Both the position numbers and the translations under genes were made by a program. Shown one piece after another: positions 3,027 through 16,118 of a stretch of DNA of 21,503 bases. The stretch covers positions 1 through 21,503 of the IMG/VR virus record IMGVR_UViG_3300017748_000175; one strand, given 5' to 3'. The first letter of the stretch is position 1. Every line of letters starts with the position of its first letter. The notes under the pieces are model-generated. The model worked only from the letters and a program-made list of their open reading frames with translations, did not search any database and was not told where the DNA came from. The stretch is from a virus.

Positions 3027-3776
3027 ATGTGCAAGATTGAATTAGATACGAAAGCGTTGAGCAACTTCATTGCGTCCTTCCCGAAGGCGCTGAAGGATAT
3101 GCGCATCATGGCTGCGGGTGCCCGCATTGCCGTGGAGGTGGCGTATGCCCACTACTACGTTCGCAAGAGCGAGCCTGCTACCGTACACCAAGAGGGCGCA
3201 CTGCACATCACCGCACTGGACAAGGTGACCAAGTTCCTGAAGGCAGCGAAGGGCGACACCGTGGTGCTGAGGCAGACCTCACCCACCAAGCCCCTTCACA
3301 TTGAATCAGGCTCAAACAAGTTGCAGTTGCCAAGCAGCGACGACATTGAGTCAGCCAACAAAGCGCCCATCGTTCGCAACATCGTTGAAGCGTGTGCGAA
3401 CTCGGGGTACTCATCGTTCGGTGAGTACGAACTCTCAGCACATGCTACAATGATAACCACCGACCTCATTGCCCTTGGTGGTATGAAGAGTCTGATTGCG
3501 AAGGACTCGCAGTACAAGGCTCGCATTCACTGCGGTGAAGGTGAGTTCGGTATCGTTGCAGGCAAGGCATCGAGTGGTCGTATCTTCTCAACCATCGAAG
3601 TGATTGACTCAGACGGTCCTCCGGCCACGGTACAGTCACACTTCGGTGAGTGGTTGCCTGAATGCTTGGCATACCTTGACGACGAAGGCACTCGCCTACA
3701 CATGGGTGACAATACCCCTCTCGTCTTTGAACAGAACCACACTACACTCATCATTATTCAGGAGGCAGATGTGTGA
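3027..3776 (+). CDS. pcn: PCNA-like DNA sliding clamp
   Basis: 249 residues, the usual size of archaeal PCNA (about 245-260). The sliding clamp tethers the polymerase and nucleases to DNA. The start at 3027 has GAGGTG 6 bases upstream. An ATG at 2913 in the same frame would add 38 residues encoded by the hairpin region and was rejected. The C-terminus, with GDNTPLVFEQNHTTLIIIQ followed by a short acidic tail, resembles the last strands and C-terminal tail of PCNA. The central strand-rich repeats (for example LHITALDKVTKFLK) fit a clamp domain. Overall similarity is weak by eye, so the call leans on size, the C-terminal pattern, and its place between the clamp loader and PolB. AGGAGG for the next gene lies inside its last codons, and its stop overlaps the PolB start. 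Confidence 0.72.
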   Translation: MCKIELDTKALSNFIASFPKALKDMRIMAAGARIAVEVAYAHYYVRKSEPATVHQEGALHITALDKVTKFLKAAKGDTVVLRQTSPTKPLHIESGSNKLQLPSSDDIESANKAPIVRNIVEACANSGYSSFGEYELSAHATMITTDLIALGGMKSLIAKDSQYKARIHCGEGEFGIVAGKASSGRIFSTIEVIDSDGPPATVQSHFGEWLPECLAYLDDEGTRLHMGDNTPLVFEQNHTTLIIIQEADV

Positions 3777-6196
3777 TAATTGACTGGTTTGACGACCCGG
3801 CAGATAGCACGCCAGTCCTGTACCTACGTACACGTGGGTCTGATGGCGTACTGAAGGAAGAGTACCTGTACTCCGGTGACGAAGGCTACGTGACGCCTTT
3901 CTGTTGGGTTCGACAGTCCGCACCTACATGGGTGCTGAATCGTTTGAGAAACCTCAATGCCGTTGTTCATCGTGGTATCATTGCTACAGGTGTGGACGAC
4001 GAGCCACTGTTCAAGGTGACCACTGCCCATCCGAAGACCCTGTGGGAGATTCGTGAGAAGTGCCCACGGTGGACGTATGAGGCTGATTTGCCTTACCATG
4101 AACAGGTGCTCCTGACCATGTACCCCGGTGTTGATGACTTCCCTGAGTTCCACCCGCGCAAGTGGTACTTCGACATGGAGTGGCAAACGAGTGGCGACGG
4201 TGAAATCACAATCATTGCAGTGGTGGACACCGACCATGAGCACCCCGTCGTGTTCGCATGGAGTCAGGAGTCTAACGCTGAAAGCATCACGAAGACCGAA
4301 TGGATTGACCGCTACGATGGTTACGAACTACGTACGTTCATCAGCGAGCAGATGATGCTTGACGGCTTCATGGGCTTCATGCGTGAGCGTGACCCTGACA
4401 TGCTCATCGCGCACGCAGGCCACTGGGCTGACCTGCCCAAGTTGTACAACAGGTTGCACACTCCACAGGACATGTCGCCACTCGGTATCATGTACCCACC
4501 CAAGCCCGGTACGGGCTATCAGAACATCATGGGTAACCCTACGACTCAACCCATCAAGGGGCGACTGTGCTTCGACACCGCTGCTCCGTGGACAAGCGGC
4601 AGCGGGTTTGAGGGTGTGTGGCAGAAGTCGGGACGCGGACAGGCTGAGTCCCGCAAGTTGGATTGGTTCGCCAAGGCACTCGGGTTTGAAGGTAAGTTGA
4701 CCAACGACATTGAGGGCATGACTGTACACAACGGTTGGGCTGAGTACTACGATGACTTCGTGGACTACTGTTTGGTGGACACCACGTTGTTGCGTGACTG
4801 TGATGAGAAGTTGCACTGCACCGACTTCCACCTTGCGTTGCAGCGGGTAGCGGGTATTGACTTCGCAAGCACTCACAACGTCAGCCGTTACTTCCGTGGC
4901 CTCGTCGGTCGTCGTACGGACCTGAAAGCCATGAGCACGTGGAAAGAGAACCGTCCCGAGATTGAAGCAGGGTGGGTCATGCAACCTATCCCCGGACGCC
5001 GTGAAGGTGTGGCCTTGGTTGACTTCGCATCTCTGTACCCCAACATCATTCTCTCAGCGAATCTTTGTTACACGACGTTGTGTAAAGCACCCAACGAAAA
5101 TACAATCACACTCAACGTTCCACCCAAGGTGGACAACAAGGGCATGATTATCGAAGGCTCAGGCGGTGTGTACTACTGGGACCAATCCAAAGAGGGGATT
5201 CTCCCTATGGTCGTGCGTGAACTGCTCGACCTTCGCAAGCACTACAAGGGTCTGATGAAGGATGCAGATGACCCTGATGTGGCACTGGGGTACGACATGC
5301 TTCAGATGGCCGTGAAGATTTCAGTCAACGCCATCTATGGCATGGCGGCGCTTTCGATGCTTCAGGGAGGATGGGTGTCTAAGCCCATTGCTGAGTCTAT
5401 CACTTACCTCGGACGCCGCTCATGTTCCATGCTCGTTGAGAAGAGCGAAGAACTGGGTTACCCCGGTCTTGCAGGTCACACCGACTCATGTTACATTCAA
5501 GTCCCATTCGACAAGGCTGAGTGGTTGGCTGAACACCTGACCGCAGTGGCTCAAGAAGAAATGGGGATGAAGTATCTTGACGTTGAATTAGAAGCATACT
5601 TCCCGTACTGGTTCACTGCCGACACCAAGAACAGAAACTTCGGTGTGAAGTCATGGCCTGAAGACGAGGCCGGGAAGTTGCAGGTCACCGGTTACGCACT
5701 CAAGGCGTCGAACACTCCGGCGTTCGCCAAGGGTATTCTTCAGGAAGCCCTGTACGCAGTAGGCTCAGGCGAGAGCGAAGAGGAACTACACGCATTACTT
5801 CGACCAAGGGTCATGGAAGTGTACCGTGGTGAGGTGGACGTGCTCGATGCATCCTCATCAGGTCGCATCAGTAAGGCCCCGAGTGCCTACGAGAAGAGTG
5901 TACCCAACCCTGCGCGAGCAGCCATTTATGCTAACGAATACATGGGTACCCGTTTCAGCAAGGGAGACAGTGTGCGTTGGGTGTATGTCGAAGGCGTACC
6001 TGATGGCAATGCCGCTACACCCGTAGTAGCAATTCAGAATCATGAAGCAGAACCGCTTGACATCGAGGGCTACGACATTGCGTGGTCCATACTCGTTGAG
6101 AAGTGGATTGGTGCGAAGTTGAAAAGCGTGTACAAGAACATGGAATGGGACTTGGATGCAGTCACGGCACGTCGTGTGCCTGTCAAAATGTGGTGA
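3773..6196 (+). CDS. polB: Family B DNA polymerase with 3'-5' exonuclease domain
   Basis: 807-residue replicative polymerase. The start is GTG at 3773, supported by AGGAGG at 3760-3765 and a GTGA overlap with the clamp gene. Exonuclease motifs: Exo I FDMEW (D134/E136), Exo II region AHAGHWAD (D220), Exo III YCLVD (Y332/D336). Polymerase motifs: A is DFASLYPNII (D417), B is KISVNAIYG (K515, N519, Y522), and C is GHTDS (568-572). The basic motif near TKNRNFG (618-624) precedes the thumb. Motif C is unusual: the family consensus is DTDS, and here the first Asp is His569 (codon CAC) while the catalytic Asp571 is kept. All other catalytic residues I can locate are present, so it should be an active proofreading polymerase. 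It is the core of the replication operon, next to its clamp and clamp loader. Confidence 0.96.
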   Translation: MIIDWFDDPADSTPVLYLRTRGSDGVLKEEYLYSGDEGYVTPFCWVRQSAPTWVLNRLRNLNAVVHRGIIATGVDDEPLFKVTTAHPKTLWEIREKCPRWTYEADLPYHEQVLLTMYPGVDDFPEFHPRKWYFDMEWQTSGDGEITIIAVVDTDHEHPVVFAWSQESNAESITKTEWIDRYDGYELRTFISEQMMLDGFMGFMRERDPDMLIAHAGHWADLPKLYNRLHTPQDMSPLGIMYPPKPGTGYQNIMGNPTTQPIKGRLCFDTAAPWTSGSGFEGVWQKSGRGQAESRKLDWFAKALGFEGKLTNDIEGMTVHNGWAEYYDDFVDYCLVDTTLLRDCDEKLHCTDFHLALQRVAGIDFASTHNVSRYFRGLVGRRTDLKAMSTWKENRPEIEAGWVMQPIPGRREGVALVDFASLYPNIILSANLCYTTLCKAPNENTITLNVPPKVDNKGMIIEGSGGVYYWDQSKEGILPMVVRELLDLRKHYKGLMKDADDPDVALGYDMLQMAVKISVNAIYGMAALSMLQGGWVSKPIAESITYLGRRSCSMLVEKSEELGYPGLAGHTDSCYIQVPFDKAEWLAEHLTAVAQEEMGMKYLDVELEAYFPYWFTADTKNRNFGVKSWPEDEAGKLQVTGYALKASNTPAFAKGILQEALYAVGSGESEEELHALLRPRVMEVYRGEVDVLDASSSGRISKAPSAYEKSVPNPARAAIYANEYMGTRFSKGDSVRWVYVEGVPDGNAATPVVAIQNHEAEPLDIEGYDIAWSILVEKWIGAKLKSVYKNMEWDLDAVTARRVPVKMW

Positions 6197-6200
6197 TATG

Positions 6201-7655
6201 ATGAAGCAACAAATTGAGATGAAGAGCAACAATGAACAGATGGCAAACACGATGTCGAAGAGCGGTTTTACATTTTACACTGCTTTACATGAATTGCTTG
6301 ACAATGCAATTGTTACTGCGAAGAACATTCGTGTCGAATTGCTTGTCGAGAATGATGGCATGCGAGCAATCCACTGCATCAGTGTGTTTGATGACGGCGA
6401 TGGAATCAGGATGGGTGAACTCGCTGAGGCGTTTGCAGTTGGTGCCCGAACCAACCAAGGCATCAATGAACACGGTGTGGGGATGAAGAGTGCAATTGCG
6501 TATTTCGGTAACATGAACATCGCAGATGGTTTGGATTTCATCTTGACTTACGACGGTGTGGATTGTTTCAAGGTCGAAGGGTATGAGGGGAACACCCTGC
6601 ACATAGACGCCGGTTTGACTCCGCCTTGGAGTCACACTGGTACACACATTTCTATGAATGTGATGTTGAATGTCTTCGCAGCCTCACGATTTAATGCCCT
6701 CAAGGAATCGTTTGGAGTCAGGTATGGCAACTTTTTGTTGAACGGTGGTACGATTACGATTCAGGAGTTTGACATCGCCACTCGTGAGCCTATTCTCAAT
6801 GCGAAGAAAGAGGCCGAGGTGGTCAGGGTCACACCCATTCACCCTCCTTACTTCCATCCAACCACTGGCACGAAGGTACATCTGCTGAAGAAGGAAATTG
6901 TTACGCAGAACATTGTTGCTGACTTCATCATCGGCATGAGTGCTGAGGACGAGGAAGGTGTATGGAAACCACTGTCCTATGGAGGGGGCATTGACATCGT
7001 ACAGAATGACCGTGTGGTGGTGCATCGCTCGTATGAACCGCTGACCGAATGGAGGGCGAAGAATCACACATCGTTGAACCGCCTCATTGGGCAGTTGATT
7101 GTCAAGGACGGACACGTTCCGACCACACCAAAGAAGGACAACGTGCAACAAACCGAAGAATGGCAGGCTATCAAGGAGGCCATCGCTACCGCCATTCTTG
7201 AGCACAAGATTACGGCCTTCTTCAATCCGCCCGAGAACGACAACGAATACGACAACCTGAGCGAGTCACTGATTCGAGATGGATTGGCAGCGTGCCTTAC
7301 TGAGTCAACGCTACCAACCGGTGAGCCGGTGTGGAGTGATGTGAAAACAGAAGAGTCAACTGACACGAATCTCAGCATGGACGTGACGGCCATGAACGGT
7401 GAGGATATGTACGTGTTTGAGGTGAAGAAGGGTAACTTCAACGCTCAAGACATGAATCAACTCATTGGTTACATGGTCACGGTTGGTGCCAAGCGTGGTG
7501 TTGTGTTCGCCAAGACTGTGCTTGCAAATGCAAAGAAGCAGTTCGATGAACACTGGCAACCACTGTTGGGTGAGGATTTCACGATTGCCTATGCAGACAA
7601 AGACTCGCAGTTGTACAAGACTGTAATGGGTGCATACGTGAAGGTGGGTGAGTGA
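6201..7655 (+). CDS. GHKL ATPase fused to a PD-(D/E)XK nuclease domain
   Basis: 484 residues. The N-terminus is a GHKL (gyrase/Hsp90/MutL/MORC) ATPase: N-box ELLDN at 31-35, G1 DDGDG at 64-68, G2 GVGMKS at 92-97. The middle resembles a transducer-like region with a conserved-looking VPTTPKKD segment. The C-terminus has the core of a PD-(D/E)XK endonuclease: D394 in MDVTA, then E407-V-K409 after a strand, then a helix NQLIGYM. The layout suggests an ATP-gated DNA clamp with a nuclease, like MORC/MutL-type proteins seen in prokaryotic restriction and repair contexts. The substrate is unknown. ATGs at 6198 and 6201 are adjacent; 6201 leaves 3 bases after GGTGAT (6192-6197) and was preferred. The gene sits directly after PolB, so repair, recombination or attack on host DNA are all possible. 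ATPase family is firm, nuclease domain likely. Confidence 0.85.
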   Translation: MKQQIEMKSNNEQMANTMSKSGFTFYTALHELLDNAIVTAKNIRVELLVENDGMRAIHCISVFDDGDGIRMGELAEAFAVGARTNQGINEHGVGMKSAIAYFGNMNIADGLDFILTYDGVDCFKVEGYEGNTLHIDAGLTPPWSHTGTHISMNVMLNVFAASRFNALKESFGVRYGNFLLNGGTITIQEFDIATREPILNAKKEAEVVRVTPIHPPYFHPTTGTKVHLLKKEIVTQNIVADFIIGMSAEDEEGVWKPLSYGGGIDIVQNDRVVVHRSYEPLTEWRAKNHTSLNRLIGQLIVKDGHVPTTPKKDNVQQTEEWQAIKEAIATAILEHKITAFFNPPENDNEYDNLSESLIRDGLAACLTESTLPTGEPVWSDVKTEESTDTNLSMDVTAMNGEDMYVFEVKKGNFNAQDMNQLIGYMVTVGAKRGVVFAKTVLANAKKQFDEHWQPLLGEDFTIAYADKDSQLYKTVMGAYVKVGE

Positions 7656-7656
7656 A

Positions 7657-7827
7657 GTGAAGTGGAAACTGTGGAAGAGAGTCATGCAAACTGAAGTGGA
7701 GGCACCGAAGATGCGCTACTGCCAGTGTTGCGGTGGCGTTGAAACGCGACAGACCAAACTCAGTGAGTTCGGTGACACGCTACCCAATGAGCAGACACGC
7801 CTGTTCCCCCTACCCGTGAGGCGATGA
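7657..7827 (+). CDS. Small unknown protein with Cys cluster, GTG start
   Basis: 56 residues, predicted from GTG at 7657; GGTGAG lies 4 bases upstream, and the gene ends 1 base before the next ATG. An in-frame ATG at 7684 would give 47 residues. The N-terminus is basic and aromatic (MKWKLWKRVM); the middle has MRYCQCCGG, three cysteines that could bind a metal or form a dimeric zinc site. It fills an otherwise empty gap in a block without other gaps of this size, which supports its being real. No function recognised. Confidence 0.5.
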   Translation: MKWKLWKRVMQTEVEAPKMRYCQCCGGVETRQTKLSEFGDTLPNEQTRLFPLPVRR

Positions 7828-7828
7828 G

Positions 7829-8017
7829 ATGAGTGCCATTGAAGAGCGCGTCATCGCCAAGATTCGCAGCCGCGCAGATGTCGGCAAAGCCAAGTACGGA
7901 GTCACGATGGAGCGTGATGACCTTGACCTACTCGCGTGGCTTCAGCACTTGCAAGAGGAACTGATGGATGCTGCCGTGTACGTTGAGCGTCTGATGGACG
8001 AGGTGAAAGACCGATGA
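7829..8017 (+). CDS. Small helical phage-type protein, MazG-like fold possible
   Basis: 62 residues, predicted all-helical. It carries KYGVTMER followed by LLAWLQHLQEELMDAAVYVERL. This WLQHLxEExxDAxxY pattern is common in small proteins of tailed phages and recalls the metal-binding helices of all-alpha NTP pyrophosphohydrolases (MazG/dUTPase-like), in which EExxD residues bind magnesium. If so it might clean up the nucleotide pool, but at this length it would be a minimal version and activity is doubtful. The start follows the previous stop by 1 base and its end overlaps the next gene by ATGA. Coding is likely; function is a guess. Confidence 0.55.
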   Translation: MSAIEERVIAKIRSRADVGKAKYGVTMERDDLDLLAWLQHLQEELMDAAVYVERLMDEVKDR

Positions 8018-9042
8018 GGTGGAACCCTACGGGTGATGATAGTCGCCAGTCCATTGACGAGTACGAGGCCGAAACAGGTCACACTGATGAGGCCGAGTGG
8101 TACCGCCGTAGCAGGTACGACTGGAACCCCAACGACCAAGATGGGTCCATCCTCCGCATCTCCAAGTCAAGTCTTGGTACATACGGGTGGTGCCCTCAGC
8201 AATACTACATCGCTCGCTTCCTACGTATCAAAGAAGAGCAGAACGATGCCATGACCCGTGGTTCTAACGTCCACGACTTCGTTGAGTTCTTTTGGGCTGA
8301 TTTTAATGCCGAGGAAGAAGTCGTGAACCTTTACGAAAGCGGGAAGACCGAAGAGGCCCGCGAATTGTTTTACACTCATGCTACTCCCGAACCACCTGAA
8401 CCATACGAGTTCGGTGAGCCGGAGCAGATTCTCCAATGGTTGGAATGGCAATACCAACGTCTTGTCCAAGGTGGTATCAAGAACTGGAGTCCTGCTTCAG
8501 TTGAAGCACACGTACACGCAAACCGTTACGTCGAAGTGGAGGATGAAGCGATTCCCATTCACCTGTCGGGTTTCATTGATTCCATCTTTCCCACCGGTCA
8601 CGGTACATTCGCACTCATGGAACTGAAGACAGGCAAGTGGAAGGACCGCAGTGGTCTGAGTAAGATGCGCAAGGAAATGGGCTTCTATCAGATGTTCCTG
8701 AACAACAGTCCACACGCTGAATTTCTGCCCATTTCTCATTGGGGATGGGAGTTTCCCGGTGGTGCTGAGAAAGATGGTGAACGCAACGCTCTTGTGTACG
8801 AGGAAGTCAAAACACGTACACTCACCAGTGTTGAGAACGCACTGAAGAAACTCGTTACTGCTCACGTGAACATGGACTTCCCGCCCGACCCGTGGCTCGG
8901 TAGGCCCAAGCGCGACAAGGAGGGGAACATGCTTCCGTGGGAGCAGCAGTTGATGAAATGTAACTGGTGTTCATTTCATGAGCATTGCGATTTTTGGTCA
9001 GTGACAGACAAATACCTTGATGAATTGGAGAGAGCAGAATGA
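8014..9042 (+). CDS. Cas4/RecB-like PD-(D/E)XK nuclease with Fe-S cysteines
   Basis: 342 residues. It resembles the RecB-family exonuclease domain shared by Cas4, AddB and Dna2. The N-terminal part has ISKSSLGTYGWCPQQYYI with C60, and a histidine (H87) in GSNVHDF. The catalytic core is D189 (SGFIDS) and E203-x-K205 (MELKTGKW), then YQ at 225-226. The C-terminus has KCNWCSFHEHC, giving C316, C319 and C325. One early and three late cysteines are the layout of the iron-sulfur cluster that locks this nuclease fold. Likely role: 5'- or 3'-end resection of DNA during viral recombination or processing of replication intermediates. There is no cas1/cas2 or CRISPR array nearby, so a CRISPR role is not supported. 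Its start makes an ATGA overlap with the preceding gene. Confidence 0.87.
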   Translation: MRWNPTGDDSRQSIDEYEAETGHTDEAEWYRRSRYDWNPNDQDGSILRISKSSLGTYGWCPQQYYIARFLRIKEEQNDAMTRGSNVHDFVEFFWADFNAEEEVVNLYESGKTEEARELFYTHATPEPPEPYEFGEPEQILQWLEWQYQRLVQGGIKNWSPASVEAHVHANRYVEVEDEAIPIHLSGFIDSIFPTGHGTFALMELKTGKWKDRSGLSKMRKEMGFYQMFLNNSPHAEFLPISHWGWEFPGGAEKDGERNALVYEEVKTRTLTSVENALKKLVTAHVNMDFPPDPWLGRPKRDKEGNMLPWEQQLMKCNWCSFHEHCDFWSVTDKYLDELERAE

Positions 9043-10425: not shown

Positions 10426-10739
10426 TGCCGCGATTGAAATGTGTTCTGTGTGGTACATGGGGTATGCGTAAAGCGGTCAAACATGATGAAACAACATTTG
10501 TTTGTTCCGCCTGTCGCTCGGAACCGCCTTCTGAAGAATGGAGATGTAAAGGTCAACGCCCTCACAACAGGGGTCGTTGCAATTACTGGGCCAACGAAAA
10601 GAATGGTTATTGCAGTCGTCACGCAGGAGCAACACAGTGCTCGGCCATGAATCACAAAACAAGGGAACGGTGTACCACAACCGCAGTTAAACCAAACTCT
10701 ACTTGTCATCTTCACAAAGGCTACTGGGGGGTTGACTGA
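10425..10739 (+). CDS. Small triple zinc-finger protein with two C-x10-C-x10-C-x2-H repeats
   Basis: 104 residues with a regular cysteine pattern. An N-terminal zinc ribbon uses C6/C9 and C27/C30. Two repeats follow with identical spacing: C41/C52/C63/H66 and C72/C83/C94/H97, each C-x10-C-x10-C-x2-H. The repeats resemble the DUF5763-type finger (C-x-G...R-C...YC-x-x-H). It probably binds nucleic acid or protein; no enzyme motif is present. The start overlaps the primase stop (TGATG at 10423-10427), and the stop overlaps the HNH gene in the same way. Codon use here is richer in A-ending codons (aaa, aca, gaa) than in the flanking replication genes, which hints that this gene and the next came in together, though this was judged by eye. 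Confidence 0.8.
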   Translation: MPRLKCVLCGTWGMRKAVKHDETTFVCSACRSEPPSEEWRCKGQRPHNRGRCNYWANEKNGYCSRHAGATQCSAMNHKTRERCTTTAVKPNSTCHLHKGYWGVD

Positions 10740-10743
10740 TGCC
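10732..10743 (+). repeat. Left copy of 12-base direct repeat bounding the HNH gene
   Basis: TTGACTGATGCC occurs here and again at 11681-11692. With four more bases on the left the match is 15 of 16 (GGGG/GGGA then the 12-mer). The copy spans the stop of the zinc-finger gene and the start of the HNH gene. Confidence 0.8.
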
Positions 10744-11701
10744 CACTACACGCGAGTGCATCGAATGCGGCACGACGTTTAAGCCGCTCACGTGCGATGT
10801 TGCCTGTTCCCCTGAATGCAAGCGAGAGCGAAGACTTGCTCGACAGATTGCTTATCGAAAAAGAAAGAAAGCGGCTCAACCTCCCCCTCCCCCTCTCCCC
10901 ATGAAAGAGTGCATCGAATGTGGCTCTTCTTTCCAACCATCGGACGTGAGAACCAAAATATGCTCCGATGAATGCAGGCGCTCTTTGGCAAGGCAAAGGC
11001 GGGAAAAGAAGCACGGGGGCGCAAAACCTCGCCAATGTTCTGAGTGCGGCGAGGTTTTCCAACCCCCATACGGGCGCGGCCATGAACTCATTACTCTTTG
11101 TTCTGAAGAGTGCAAATTGGTTAGTAGGCGAAAAAGTGGGCGAAAATACGCTCAAAAGAATGCTGAGAAATTACGAGCGAAACACGCTGAAAAAATGAAG
11201 TGTTCCGTTTACAGAAAAAATTGGGCATTACGCTCCGCTCGACGGAGAGCCAAGAACCCTGTTTTGGCAGATTGCGCGGTTTGTGGAACTCAGTTCAAAA
11301 AAATCAGGAGGGCGAAAACGTGTTCCGATGAATGTTCAAAGCAACTGAGAAGTGACCGTTACGCGAAGCCGGTGAACAGGATTTCTGCAAGGTTCGCAAT
11401 GGGAATCAGAAGGAGAATCAAGGGTGAAAGAAAAGCCGTTGATGTTTGGCAGACCTTAGACTTCAGCCCCGAGATGTTCATTCAAAGATTTGAGCGACTG
11501 TTCGTTGAAGGCATGTCGTGGGACAACATAGACGATTGGCACATTGACCACATTCGCCCTGTTTCATCCTTCACGTTCACCTCCGTGGACGACCCTGAGT
11601 TCAAGGCGTGTTGGGCGTTGGAGAACCTGCAACCGCTATGGGCTTTCGACAACATGAGCAAAGGTGCAAAATGGGAGGGATTGACTGATGCCGAAGCCTG
11701 A
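10739..11701 (+). CDS. HNH endonuclease with four zinc fingers
   Basis: 320 residues. Four C-x2-C...C-x3-C fingers are visible: C7/C10/C23/C27, C58/C61/C75/C79, C100/C103/C121/C125 and C179/C182/C195/C199. Each has the CxxCGxxF...CSxEC form seen in phage homing-type nucleases. A PPPPPLP linker separates fingers 1 and 2. The C-terminal HNH core is WHIDHIRPVSSF (D270, H271), then ENLQPL (N296) and DNMSKGAKW (N305). It likely cuts a specific DNA site and may be a free-standing homing endonuclease. The gene is A-rich and Lys/Arg-rich compared with its neighbours, and its boundaries carry a 12-base direct repeat (10732-10743 and 11681-11692). The last 14 bases overlap the ERCC4 gene in another frame. 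Enzyme class is confident; homing is inferred. Confidence 0.9.
   Translation: MPTTRECIECGTTFKPLTCDVACSPECKRERRLARQIAYRKRKKAAQPPPPPLPMKECIECGSSFQPSDVRTKICSDECRRSLARQRREKKHGGAKPRQCSECGEVFQPPYGRGHELITLCSEECKLVSRRKSGRKYAQKNAEKLRAKHAEKMKCSVYRKNWALRSARRRAKNPVLADCAVCGTQFKKIRRAKTCSDECSKQLRSDRYAKPVNRISARFAMGIRRRIKGERKAVDVWQTLDFSPEMFIQRFERLFVEGMSWDNIDDWHIDHIRPVSSFTFTSVDDPEFKACWALENLQPLWAFDNMSKGAKWEGLTDAEA
11681..11692 (+). repeat. Right copy of 12-base direct repeat bounding the HNH gene
   Basis: Second copy of TTGACTGATGCC, 949 bases from the first. It spans the start codon of the ERCC4 gene and lies inside the last codons of the HNH gene in a different frame. Loss of the intervening segment by recombination between the copies would leave an intact TGATG junction between the zinc-finger and ERCC4 genes. 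Confidence 0.8.
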
Positions 11702-14017: not shown

Positions 14018-14622
14018 GTAACGTACTTGCATTGGACATTGAAACGGGCAACTACTCGTACGAGATTGGCGGTTGGGATAAGACTGCATCGTTTGAGCCA
14101 ACCGTGGTTGCAACGTGGGACGGAGCCGTAGGCAACGTGTACTGCAACAAGGCCGTTGATGTTGATGCTACGGTCAAAGACCTACACCCACGTACGTTGG
14201 GTGAAGACCTCACCAAGTACGTCGAAGATGGCGGCGTCATTCTTGGGCACAACATTCGCAAGTTTGACCTACCTGTTCTGCGTGACGCTTTGGACTGTTG
14301 GACTGCGGGTGACCTGCTTGGCAAGTCTGATGCCATCGTGGACACCAAGTTGCTTGTGCAAAAGGCAGGCATGACCGTTAAGGGTGGTGTACAATCCGCC
14401 CTTGGTGATTTGGTAAAGCACACGCTTTCGGATGCGAAACTGATGAGCAGCCACGATGCACCTGAAGCATGGCGTGCAGGCAAGTACGACGAGGTGGCAC
14501 AGTACTGCCTTAGTGACGCTCGCTTAACGCACGACCTGTACACGTTCGGTAAATCGAACGGCTATATTCGCTCCCGTGTCATGAAGACAGGGGAAGTGAT
14601 TGAATTGGAGGTGGAATGGTGA
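14014..14622 (+). CDS. Stand-alone DEDD (DnaQ/PolB-like) 3'-5' exonuclease
   Basis: 202 residues. Exo I is LALDIETG (D8, E10), Exo II is [12 protein letters not shown] (N80, D85), and Exo III is [12 protein letters not shown] (Y164, D168). All four DEDD acids and the Exo III Tyr are present, so it belongs to the DEDDy group, which includes the exonuclease domains of family B polymerases. It probably trims 3' ends or proofreads in trans; PolB in this window already has its own intact exonuclease, so a repair or recombination role is more likely. The start at 14014 is chosen for its ATGA overlap with the preceding gene; the frame is open upstream to 13954 only because of the neighbour. Its stop lies inside the first codons of the thermosome gene. 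Confidence 0.93.
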
Positions 14623-16118
14623 GTGAAGAACCAAACAAAAGCAAGGCGCAAGTACACAACATTAGGGCGGCAAAGACGGTTGCTGAAACCGTCAAGTCCA
14701 CACTGGGACCGTTGGGTATGGATAAGATGATGGTTGATGGTGGCGGCAACGTCATCGTCACAAACGACGGTGCGACGATTCTCCGTGAACTGGACGTGTC
14801 GCATCCCGGTGGCAAGATGATTGCCGAGATTGCCAAGACGCAGGAAAGCCTGTGCTACGACGGTACTACGAGTACGGTTGTGCTTGCGGGTGCCCTGCTC
14901 GGTAATTCAGAAGCCCTGTTTGAGAAGGGGCTGCATCCTAACGTCATCTGCCGTGGGTATCACGAAGCCGCTCATATGGCAGTGGAATACCTTGAGCAAC
15001 ATGTGTCGCTCTATCGCAAAGACGTGCTTTCGTGGGTTGCTCGTACTGCCATTACTGGCAAGACGTTGGAATCGTCCATTGACACTGTGTCTCAACTGTG
15101 CGTGGAAGCCGTGACCAAGGCAGGCGGGGACGCTGAGAGTGTCAAGGTCGTGTCCTTCCCCGGTGGCTCCATCGAAGACTCGTACCTGTACGGTGGTATC
15201 ATCGTCAACAAGGACTACGTGCATGAAAGTGAGTCTGATGGCTACGGTCACATCGTGCTCATCAACACCGGTCTTGACCATGAGAAAGGCGAGGACAACG
15301 TGCAGGTGCAAATGGATGCGAATGCATACCAGTCCTACAAGAAGGGTGGAAATGCAGCACTCATCACGGACGCAAAGCATCTTGTGGATGCGTTGCCGAA
15401 GGGTGGCGTTGTCTTCGTACGTGACGGCGTGAACGACCACGTTGCTGCATACCTGAAGAAGCACGACATCATGGTGGTGCGTCGTACCCCTGAGTCCACC
15501 GTGCGTGCGTTGAGTCGTGCCACGGGTGCCATTATCCATCAAACCCCCAGTGAGGTTGAGAGCAGCGTTGACGCACAGGTGCGCCGTGAGCGTCACAACG
15601 ACGTGTGGTACCTGTTCGTGGAAAACGACCATGAGAGCAACGAGGCTACACTCGTCTTGCGCGGTGCCACGACGCACACGCTTGATGAAGTGGAGCGCGG
15701 ATTCGATGACGCCCTTGGTGTCGTGTCTCTTGTCATGGATGACGGTATGGTTGTGACGGGTGGTGGCAACGCCTACGCACGTATGGCCATGCATCTGCGC
15801 TCTCATGCAAGTACCATCGGTGGACGCGCTCAGATGGCCATTGAAGCGTTTGCAGACGGGTTGGAGTCCATTCCTGCCACCATCGCTGAGAATGCAGGCC
15901 ACGACCCTCTCAACACCATCCTTGACATGCGCCACGAACTGATGAGTGGTAACTCACACGCCGGACCCGATGTGGTCAACGGTGGTGTGATGGACTTGCT
16001 TGAGGCTCAGGTGGTGGAACCTGCTGCGCTTGTTCGTCAGGCCGTTCTCAGCGCCGCTGAAGTCAGCAACGCAATCCTACGTATTGACGACATCATTGCT
16101 CGGAGGCAGATGGAGTGA
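14616..16118 (+). CDS. ths: Group II chaperonin (thermosome/CCT-type) subunit
   Basis: 500 residues. It should form the double-ring, built-in-lid chaperonin of archaea. Equatorial signatures are clear: [13 protein letters not shown] (28-39), NDGATIL (50-56) and DGTTS (82-86), where cellular subunits read GDGTT; here the first Gly is Tyr81, while the catalytic Asp82 stays. The apical region has [17 protein letters not shown]. The C-terminal equatorial part has [26 protein letters not shown], split here only by length. It ends soon after ILRIDDIIA without the Gly-rich tail, and is about 40 residues shorter than typical thermosome subunits. GGAGGTGG precedes ATG 14616; GTG 14619 is an alternative. 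The gene is last but two in the replication operon. It may fold viral replication or virion proteins, perhaps mixing with host subunits; that is inference. Confidence 0.95.

Follow-up and report, generated by a model that had tools for sequence, protein, structure and literature searches.

The window, by which we mean the whole stretch of DNA analysed (21,503 nucleotides; the 21.5-kb virus record IMGVR_UViG_3300017748_000175), encodes a family-B DNA polymerase, an ERCC4 nuclease and a thermosome, a gene content in keeping with magroviruses, which infect marine Poseidoniales archaea (PMC12999244; PMC10160649). The thermosome subunit is complete (14616-16118, plus strand; Cpn60_TCP1, 1.7e-124), and its best full-length cellular match, at about 44% identity, comes from a Candidatus Poseidoniaceae genome. 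The gene studied here, a GHKL ATPase fused to a PD-(D/E)XK nuclease, occupies 6201..7655 on the plus strand; its open frame, Pfam match, homologs on other viral contigs and selection pattern mark it as a real gene with a product of 484 aa, and an alternative ATG at 6198 would add one methionine. It starts 1-4 nt 3' of polB and is co-directional with it. This polB gene (3773..6196, plus strand), already recognized in the first-pass annotation, encodes a genuine family-B polymerase (PF00136, 2e-39), and its stop codon bounds the insertion site on the 5' side. The 3' flank consists of zinc-ribbon-like and small helical ORFs (7656..8017, plus strand), which in the alignment with the empty site of the near-identical, gene-free virus L018 directly follow polB, and next to them lies a conserved PD-(D/E)XK exonuclease (PDDEXK_1; 8014..9042, plus strand; PF12705, 3.2e-15), which anchors the variable interval on the right. 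A 320-aa ORF of the window (10739-11701, plus strand), located between the primase-like gene and that for ERCC4, is possibly another mobile nuclease: its ECxxC zinc ribbons are repeated, it matches NinG (PF05766, 2.2e-9) and its C-terminus is HNH-like. A similar-looking ORF occurs in the corresponding interval of the virus L003.

The N-terminal half of the protein is a GHKL ATP-binding domain. Residues 24-102 (6270..6506) match Pfam HATPase_c_3 (PF13589) with 28.6 bits against a gathering score of 25 (E 1.7e-6), in agreement with Foldseek on a low-confidence model, and the boxes that had been read from the sequence earlier (ELLDN at 31-35, DDGDG at 64-68 and GVGMKS at 92-97) are intact as placed, with their residues conserved to 18-24% identity. 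In motif I (E31-L-L-D34-N35; 6291..6305), E31, D34 and N35 are invariant down to 18% identity; in motif II (D64-D-G-D-G68; 6390..6404), D64 and G68 are invariant and residue 67 varies; the motif III lid (E90-H-G-V-G-M-K-S-A-I-A100; 6468..6500) retains E90, H91, G92, G94, M95 and K96 throughout, and motif IV (G147-T148; 6639..6644) is invariant, too. The middle region (residues 105-334; 6513..7202), where model confidence is low over residues 214-350, is presumed to be an S5/transducer domain. It contains K312 (7134-7136; like all preceding motifs on the plus strand), which sits within TPKKDN, is invariant in all seven alignment rows and, judging from the sequence, is a candidate for the S5 lysine finger.

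With 14 sequences as input, AlphaFold2 modelled the whole protein poorly (pLDDT 51, and below 50 over residues 214-350); the Foldseek matches ranking top with this weak model were TopoVI-B (4.3e-8), SMCHD1 (1.2e-6), Hsp90 and GyrB. Searches of the PDB with phmmer and hmmsearch returned no significant match, the profile search being topped by TopoVI-B at E 0.67, and the NCBIfam MutL score was weak (E 0.005). A match to MzaB of MZA (8.6e-4) was discounted, since it reflects only the generic ATPase box.

The C-terminal half (residues 335-484; 7203..7652, plus strand) is modelled as a PD-(D/E)XK nuclease domain, with a fold that is restriction-endonuclease-like but is not assigned to a specific nuclease family. 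Modelled alone with AlphaFold2, it reached a pLDDT of 84.1 and a pTM of 0.79; the structure prediction proposed in the first-pass annotation for both domains succeeded for the nuclease, whereas the whole-protein model remained weak. The modelled domain runs from a first helix through three strands to a second helix, a strand, a third helix and a final strand. E355 (7263..7265), the first acidic residue of an E-D-ExK set, lies in the first helix, D394 (7380..7382) at the start of the second strand and E407-V-K409 (7419..7427) in the third strand, and a RecB-like QxxxY motif follows at Q420-x-x-x-Y424 (7458..7472), all on the plus strand. The nuclease core of D394 and E407-x-K409 had been positioned correctly from the outset, and neither of the outcomes named there as refuting the reading came about: the modelled C-terminal fold is of the restriction-endonuclease kind, and D394, E407 and K409 stay conserved even at 18-24% identity. 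By Foldseek, the top PDB match of the domain is the restriction endonuclease EcoT38I (5.9e-4), and of the significant viral matches, six in number, three bear the name of phage restriction endonucleases (6e-5). At the sequence level, Pfam matches of the C-terminus to Cas4-type families were weak, with an E of 0.058 when the whole protein was searched, of 0.016 with the domain alone and of 0.0032 at best among the relatives; the weak matches include Cas4, NERD, Mrr and Hjc, which we take to be PD-(D/E)XK-type families. By hhalign, the nuclease domain matched neither Shedu nor the neighbouring exonuclease.

The protein is also encoded on thirteen further IMG/VR viral contigs, where it is 63-85% identical and all boxes are intact, and E355, D394, E407, K409 and Q420xxxY424 are invariant in these 13 magrovirus relatives. 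Nor do the ATPase and nuclease residues vary in two full-length relatives that are 18-24% identical, from a Priestia plasmid and a phage contig, and it is these two that make the residue-conservation test meaningful. The seven-row alignment holds 44 invariant columns in total, among them E31, D34, N35, D64, G68, E90-H-G, G94-M-K96, G147-T148 and K312 as well as E355, D394, E407, K409, Q420 and Y424. In the nuclease region, the six-row alignment has 89 aligned columns, 18 of them invariant, and all six of the latter residues fall in such columns (6/6); the hypergeometric chance of this is about 3e-5, a rough value, as E355, Q420 and Y424 were picked after looking. Furthermore, the gene is under strong purifying selection, with a dN/dS of 0.03-0.06 for the whole gene and of no more than 0.08 in either half.

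The Priestia relative, WP_241097392.1 of the Priestia megaterium plasmid pBP01R2b, was found by tblastn (24% identical, covering 88% of the query; E 1e-13). It has all catalytic residues in common with the viral protein and differs in its setting, a bacterial plasmid restriction island whose genes include a dcm C5-methyltransferase, an HNH/restriction endonuclease, an SNF2 helicase that scores as PADLOC PbeA, and MutH/Sau3AI; the C-terminal nuclease profile alone misses this protein, and homology there rests on the full-length alignment. The second distant relative is a viral GHKL-PD-(D/E)XK protein of IMGVR_UViG_3300028394_000260 (L217:154-1797), which at 18% identity matches in full length with the same residues and hits the family profile in two stretches, 25-205 and 239-453 (3.1e-11 and 9.9e-15); in contrast to the window gene, it lies on a phage-type contig, adjoining a uvsX recombinase gene and near thyX. 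A Rathayibacter relative is GHKL-only and stands in a row of dcm, ATPase, Z1 and PD-(D/E)XK genes, the nuclease being a separate gene. The restriction neighbourhoods of the Priestia and Rathayibacter relatives match those described for MORC/paraMORC (PMC2292703).

Beyond these, neither PADLOC nor PHROGs gave a convincing family for the 484-aa protein, tblastn of the window, Priestia and L217 proteins against 50,697 phage records yielded no match, and a scan of genome contigs found no relative. Profile searches of 390 Poseidoniales-phylum and 393 Methanothrix-phylum genomes retrieved only weak GHKL-only matches, namely MutL and MORC-like proteins, one of the latter beside an SFII helicase; a further viral candidate, L219, was discarded because its match, to a structural gene, was due to chance. 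The fusion, which had been suggested for a search in archaeal viruses and defence islands, is found on the 13 further viral contigs, on the phage-type contig of L217 and in the Priestia restriction island. In the open-access literature searched, which covered the main magrovirus papers in part, we came across no description of a protein of this kind in archaeal viruses, and within that literature the mobile archaeal-virus version of this architecture appears to be undescribed.

The gene is accessory and is exchanged among related magroviruses. Among the loci listed, about 70 distinct magrovirus PolB rows (71 in the tree count) could be compared, a set biased to near relatives, and the gene is present in 9 of these 71, each time directly downstream of polB. 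On the PolB tree its distribution needs seven gain/loss changes, at least six of them forced by well-supported branches. Four pairs of viruses with and without the gene are close in PolB amino acid identity (window/L018, 95.8%; L005/L048, 98.3%; L004/L039, 99.4%; L013/L029, 99.4%), and the junctions in all four are scarless: the polB stop and the start of the gene lie no more than a few bases apart, and the ORF that adjoins polB in the gene-free virus comes immediately after the gene's own stop. L004 and L005 share 93.6% amino acid identity in the GHKL-nuclease protein and 66.8% in PolB, and the gene tree pairs L006 with L013 (support 100/99) against the PolB tree, a conflict which argues that the gene moves between viruses. 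In all seven lineages, the gene is poorer in GC than polB, by about 5-8 points. A comparison of the window with L018 shows a local drop in polB identity, to 84-88%, at about 150-450 nt before the stop (window positions 5750-6050), against 91-99% elsewhere, perhaps owing to recombination or to selection in the polymerase C-terminus.

The interval from polB to the exonuclease is a general cargo slot whose content varies among magroviruses. In the gene carriers L006, L007 and L008, genes for an HNH endonuclease and a C5-cytosine methyltransferase lie some 2.4-4.0 kb downstream of polB, a pair that looks like a restriction-modification set; L012 and L029 hold CoiA-like competence proteins in the slot (PF25164, 8.8e-11 for L012), L084 an N4/N6 DNA methyltransferase at 385-1149 nt after polB (PF01555, 1.6e-35), and L063, a tailed archaeal virus, a CRESS-DNA-type Rep endonuclease at 342-782 nt (PF02407 Viral_Rep, 7.1e-17). 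The window encodes no C5-methyltransferase, and among seven gene-bearing, incomplete records searched for the C5 family, a single one shows such an enzyme; an obligate C5-methylase partner was therefore rejected.

Set against published descriptions, the viral protein matches, in its GHKL and nuclease domains, the architecture of paraMORC3, which consists of a GHKL domain, an S5 domain with a basic residue (for which K312 is the candidate here) and a C-terminal E-D-ExK restriction-endonuclease-fold nuclease related to RecB, and which is encoded in bacteria and archaea, mainly in proteobacteria and Bacteroidetes (Iyer, Abhiman and Aravind 2008, PMC2292703). Both have N-terminal GHKL ATP-binding motifs and a restriction-endonuclease-fold E-D-ExK C-terminus, with a middle region that in the viral protein is presumed to be S5-type, and the cellular Priestia relative shares the restriction-modification context; what differs is that here a 484-aa version resides in tailed archaeal viruses, within a replication operon, without a methylase or helicase of its own. 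A second comparison is VcSduA (Shedu type I-D), a single-protein phage-restricting nuclease that loses activity upon E27A or K557A replacement and depends on ATPase and nuclease alike to restrict phage (PMC12137116). It likewise joins a GHKL ATPase to a following PD-(D/E)XK nuclease in one protein, but it is cellular, whereas our protein is carried by viruses and its nuclease is, by sequence, devoid of DUF4263/PF14082: this Shedu signature gave no match at E<=10 in seven gene-bearing records, and hhalign against five archaeal PF14082 proteins returned a probability of 0.4% with shallow profiles. Shedu membership by signature domain was accordingly rejected, and we file the protein as a viral variant of the paraMORC3 / GHKL-Shedu kind. 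MutL/PMS2 resembles it in a GHKL and S5 clamp (the S5 part being presumed for our protein) followed by an endonuclease domain; however, the DQHA(X)2E(X)4E endonuclease motif of MutL is absent from the 484-aa sequence and the C-terminus models as PD-(D/E)XK rather than as the MutL endonuclease fold, so that MutL identity was rejected. Of the initial description as a MORC/MutL-like clamp carrying its own nuclease, the architecture holds, while the affinity appears to lie nearer to MORC/paraMORC and TopoVI-B than to MutL.

The reading we lean towards, and consider somewhat better than an even bet, is that the protein acts as a single-protein, ATP-gated DNA endonuclease of the paraMORC3/GHKL-Shedu type, carried by magroviruses as exchangeable cargo and cutting foreign DNA. 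It draws on the invariant residue sets, the restriction-endonuclease-like fold of the model, the low dN/dS, the mobility of the gene, the restriction islands of its relatives and the precedent of VcSduA. By analogy to TopoVI-B, MutL and MORC, two protomers would bind ATP and their GHKL domains dimerise; the dimer would then close a clamp around double-stranded DNA via the middle (S5) domain, and clamp closure may license a metal-dependent PD-(D/E)XK cut by E355, D394, E407 and K409. The putative target would be foreign DNA, whether that of a co-infecting rival virus, of another mobile element or of the host, and that a virus uses such a cellular defence-type protein against other DNA is likewise something we infer. 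As the window lacks a C5-methyltransferase, the sparing of self DNA that such cutting would presuppose is left unexplained by this reading. Of the two roles initially considered for the protein, a repair factor or a weapon against host or rival DNA, its behaviour as mobile cargo and the restriction-modification neighbours of its cellular relatives suggest the latter.

The main rival to an endonuclease directed at foreign DNA, unlikely in our estimate but still live, is a free-standing (intronless) homing endonuclease that would cut gene-free magroviruses at or near the 3' end of polB, with repair copying the gene in. An identical insertion site in all lineages, gene-precise junctions, a patchy distribution and transfer across lineages would all be expected from homing, and T4 offers a precedent with its 12 free-standing homing endonucleases, whose genes lie between conserved ones and which have been linked to marker exclusion (PMC2988022). 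The T4 Seg/Mob enzymes are similarly encoded by patchy nuclease genes that lie between conserved genes and are exchanged among related viruses, but they are small GIY-YIG or HNH proteins devoid of an ATPase, which in a homing enzyme would be an unusual regulator. We know of no GHKL homing endonuclease. Moreover, the co-conversion expected around a homing site is not seen for the viral gene, as identity in the polB 3' flank is not raised in gene-bearing pairs from different lineages (for L004/L005, 52-64% in the last three polB bins versus 79-91% inside the gene), and the cellular relatives reside in restriction islands, not at homing sites.

A role in viral DNA repair or recombination, as a MutL-like nicking clamp or in break processing together with PolB, the sliding clamp and the ERCC4 nuclease, seems to us more doubtful still. 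It would account for a gene that is co-directional with and next to polB in every carrier with polB in the record and for a distant relative beside uvsX on a phage contig, and some standalone paraMORC3 genes have been proposed to act outside restriction systems (PMC2292703). Against it stand the near-identical viruses lacking the gene, the missing DQHA-type endonuclease motif and the failure to find MutS in 22 magrovirus records by a search that was positive in 11 of 14 control genomes; mismatch repair, one of the options raised at the outset, was downgraded accordingly, since the viral records show no MutS and the gene is dispensable. A gene that is dispensable and swapped between lineages, yet under strong purifying selection, fits a role in conflict better than routine repair. 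A role as an anti-host or counter-defence factor, either through breakdown of the host chromosome for nucleotides or through a GHKL blocker of host defence like T4 rIIA, is in our view highly improbable. Orthologues of rIIA are indeed GHKL proteins whose C-termini vary, and they are counted among the counter-defence factors (PMC7824862); the window gene also sits in a replication-gene cluster. The ATPase half, however, matches no PHROG family of phage GHKL proteins at E<=0.1, and the intact nuclease set points to DNA cleavage instead of a blocker that only binds.

Fused GHKL-nuclease proteins were already known as cellular restriction or anti-phage enzymes, and what appears to be new here, within the literature searched, is the mobile archaeal-virus version. 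The architecture is found on the virus's side, traded cleanly among viruses of the Poseidoniales, which are among the ocean's most abundant archaeal groups. The natural pairs with and without the gene, 96-99% identical in PolB, are ready-made for comparison, and the protein, at 484 aa, is a compact model in which to study how DNA cutting is licensed by a GHKL clamp, which is equally a question for MORC, paraMORC and VcSduA. As a bolder and rather unlikely proposal, a self-contained, clamp-type restriction nuclease might be traded among tailed archaeal viruses at the slot behind polB for the exclusion of one virus by another, perhaps also spreading itself by cutting gene-free rivals. To our knowledge, no such GHKL-driven exclusion or homing element has been described.
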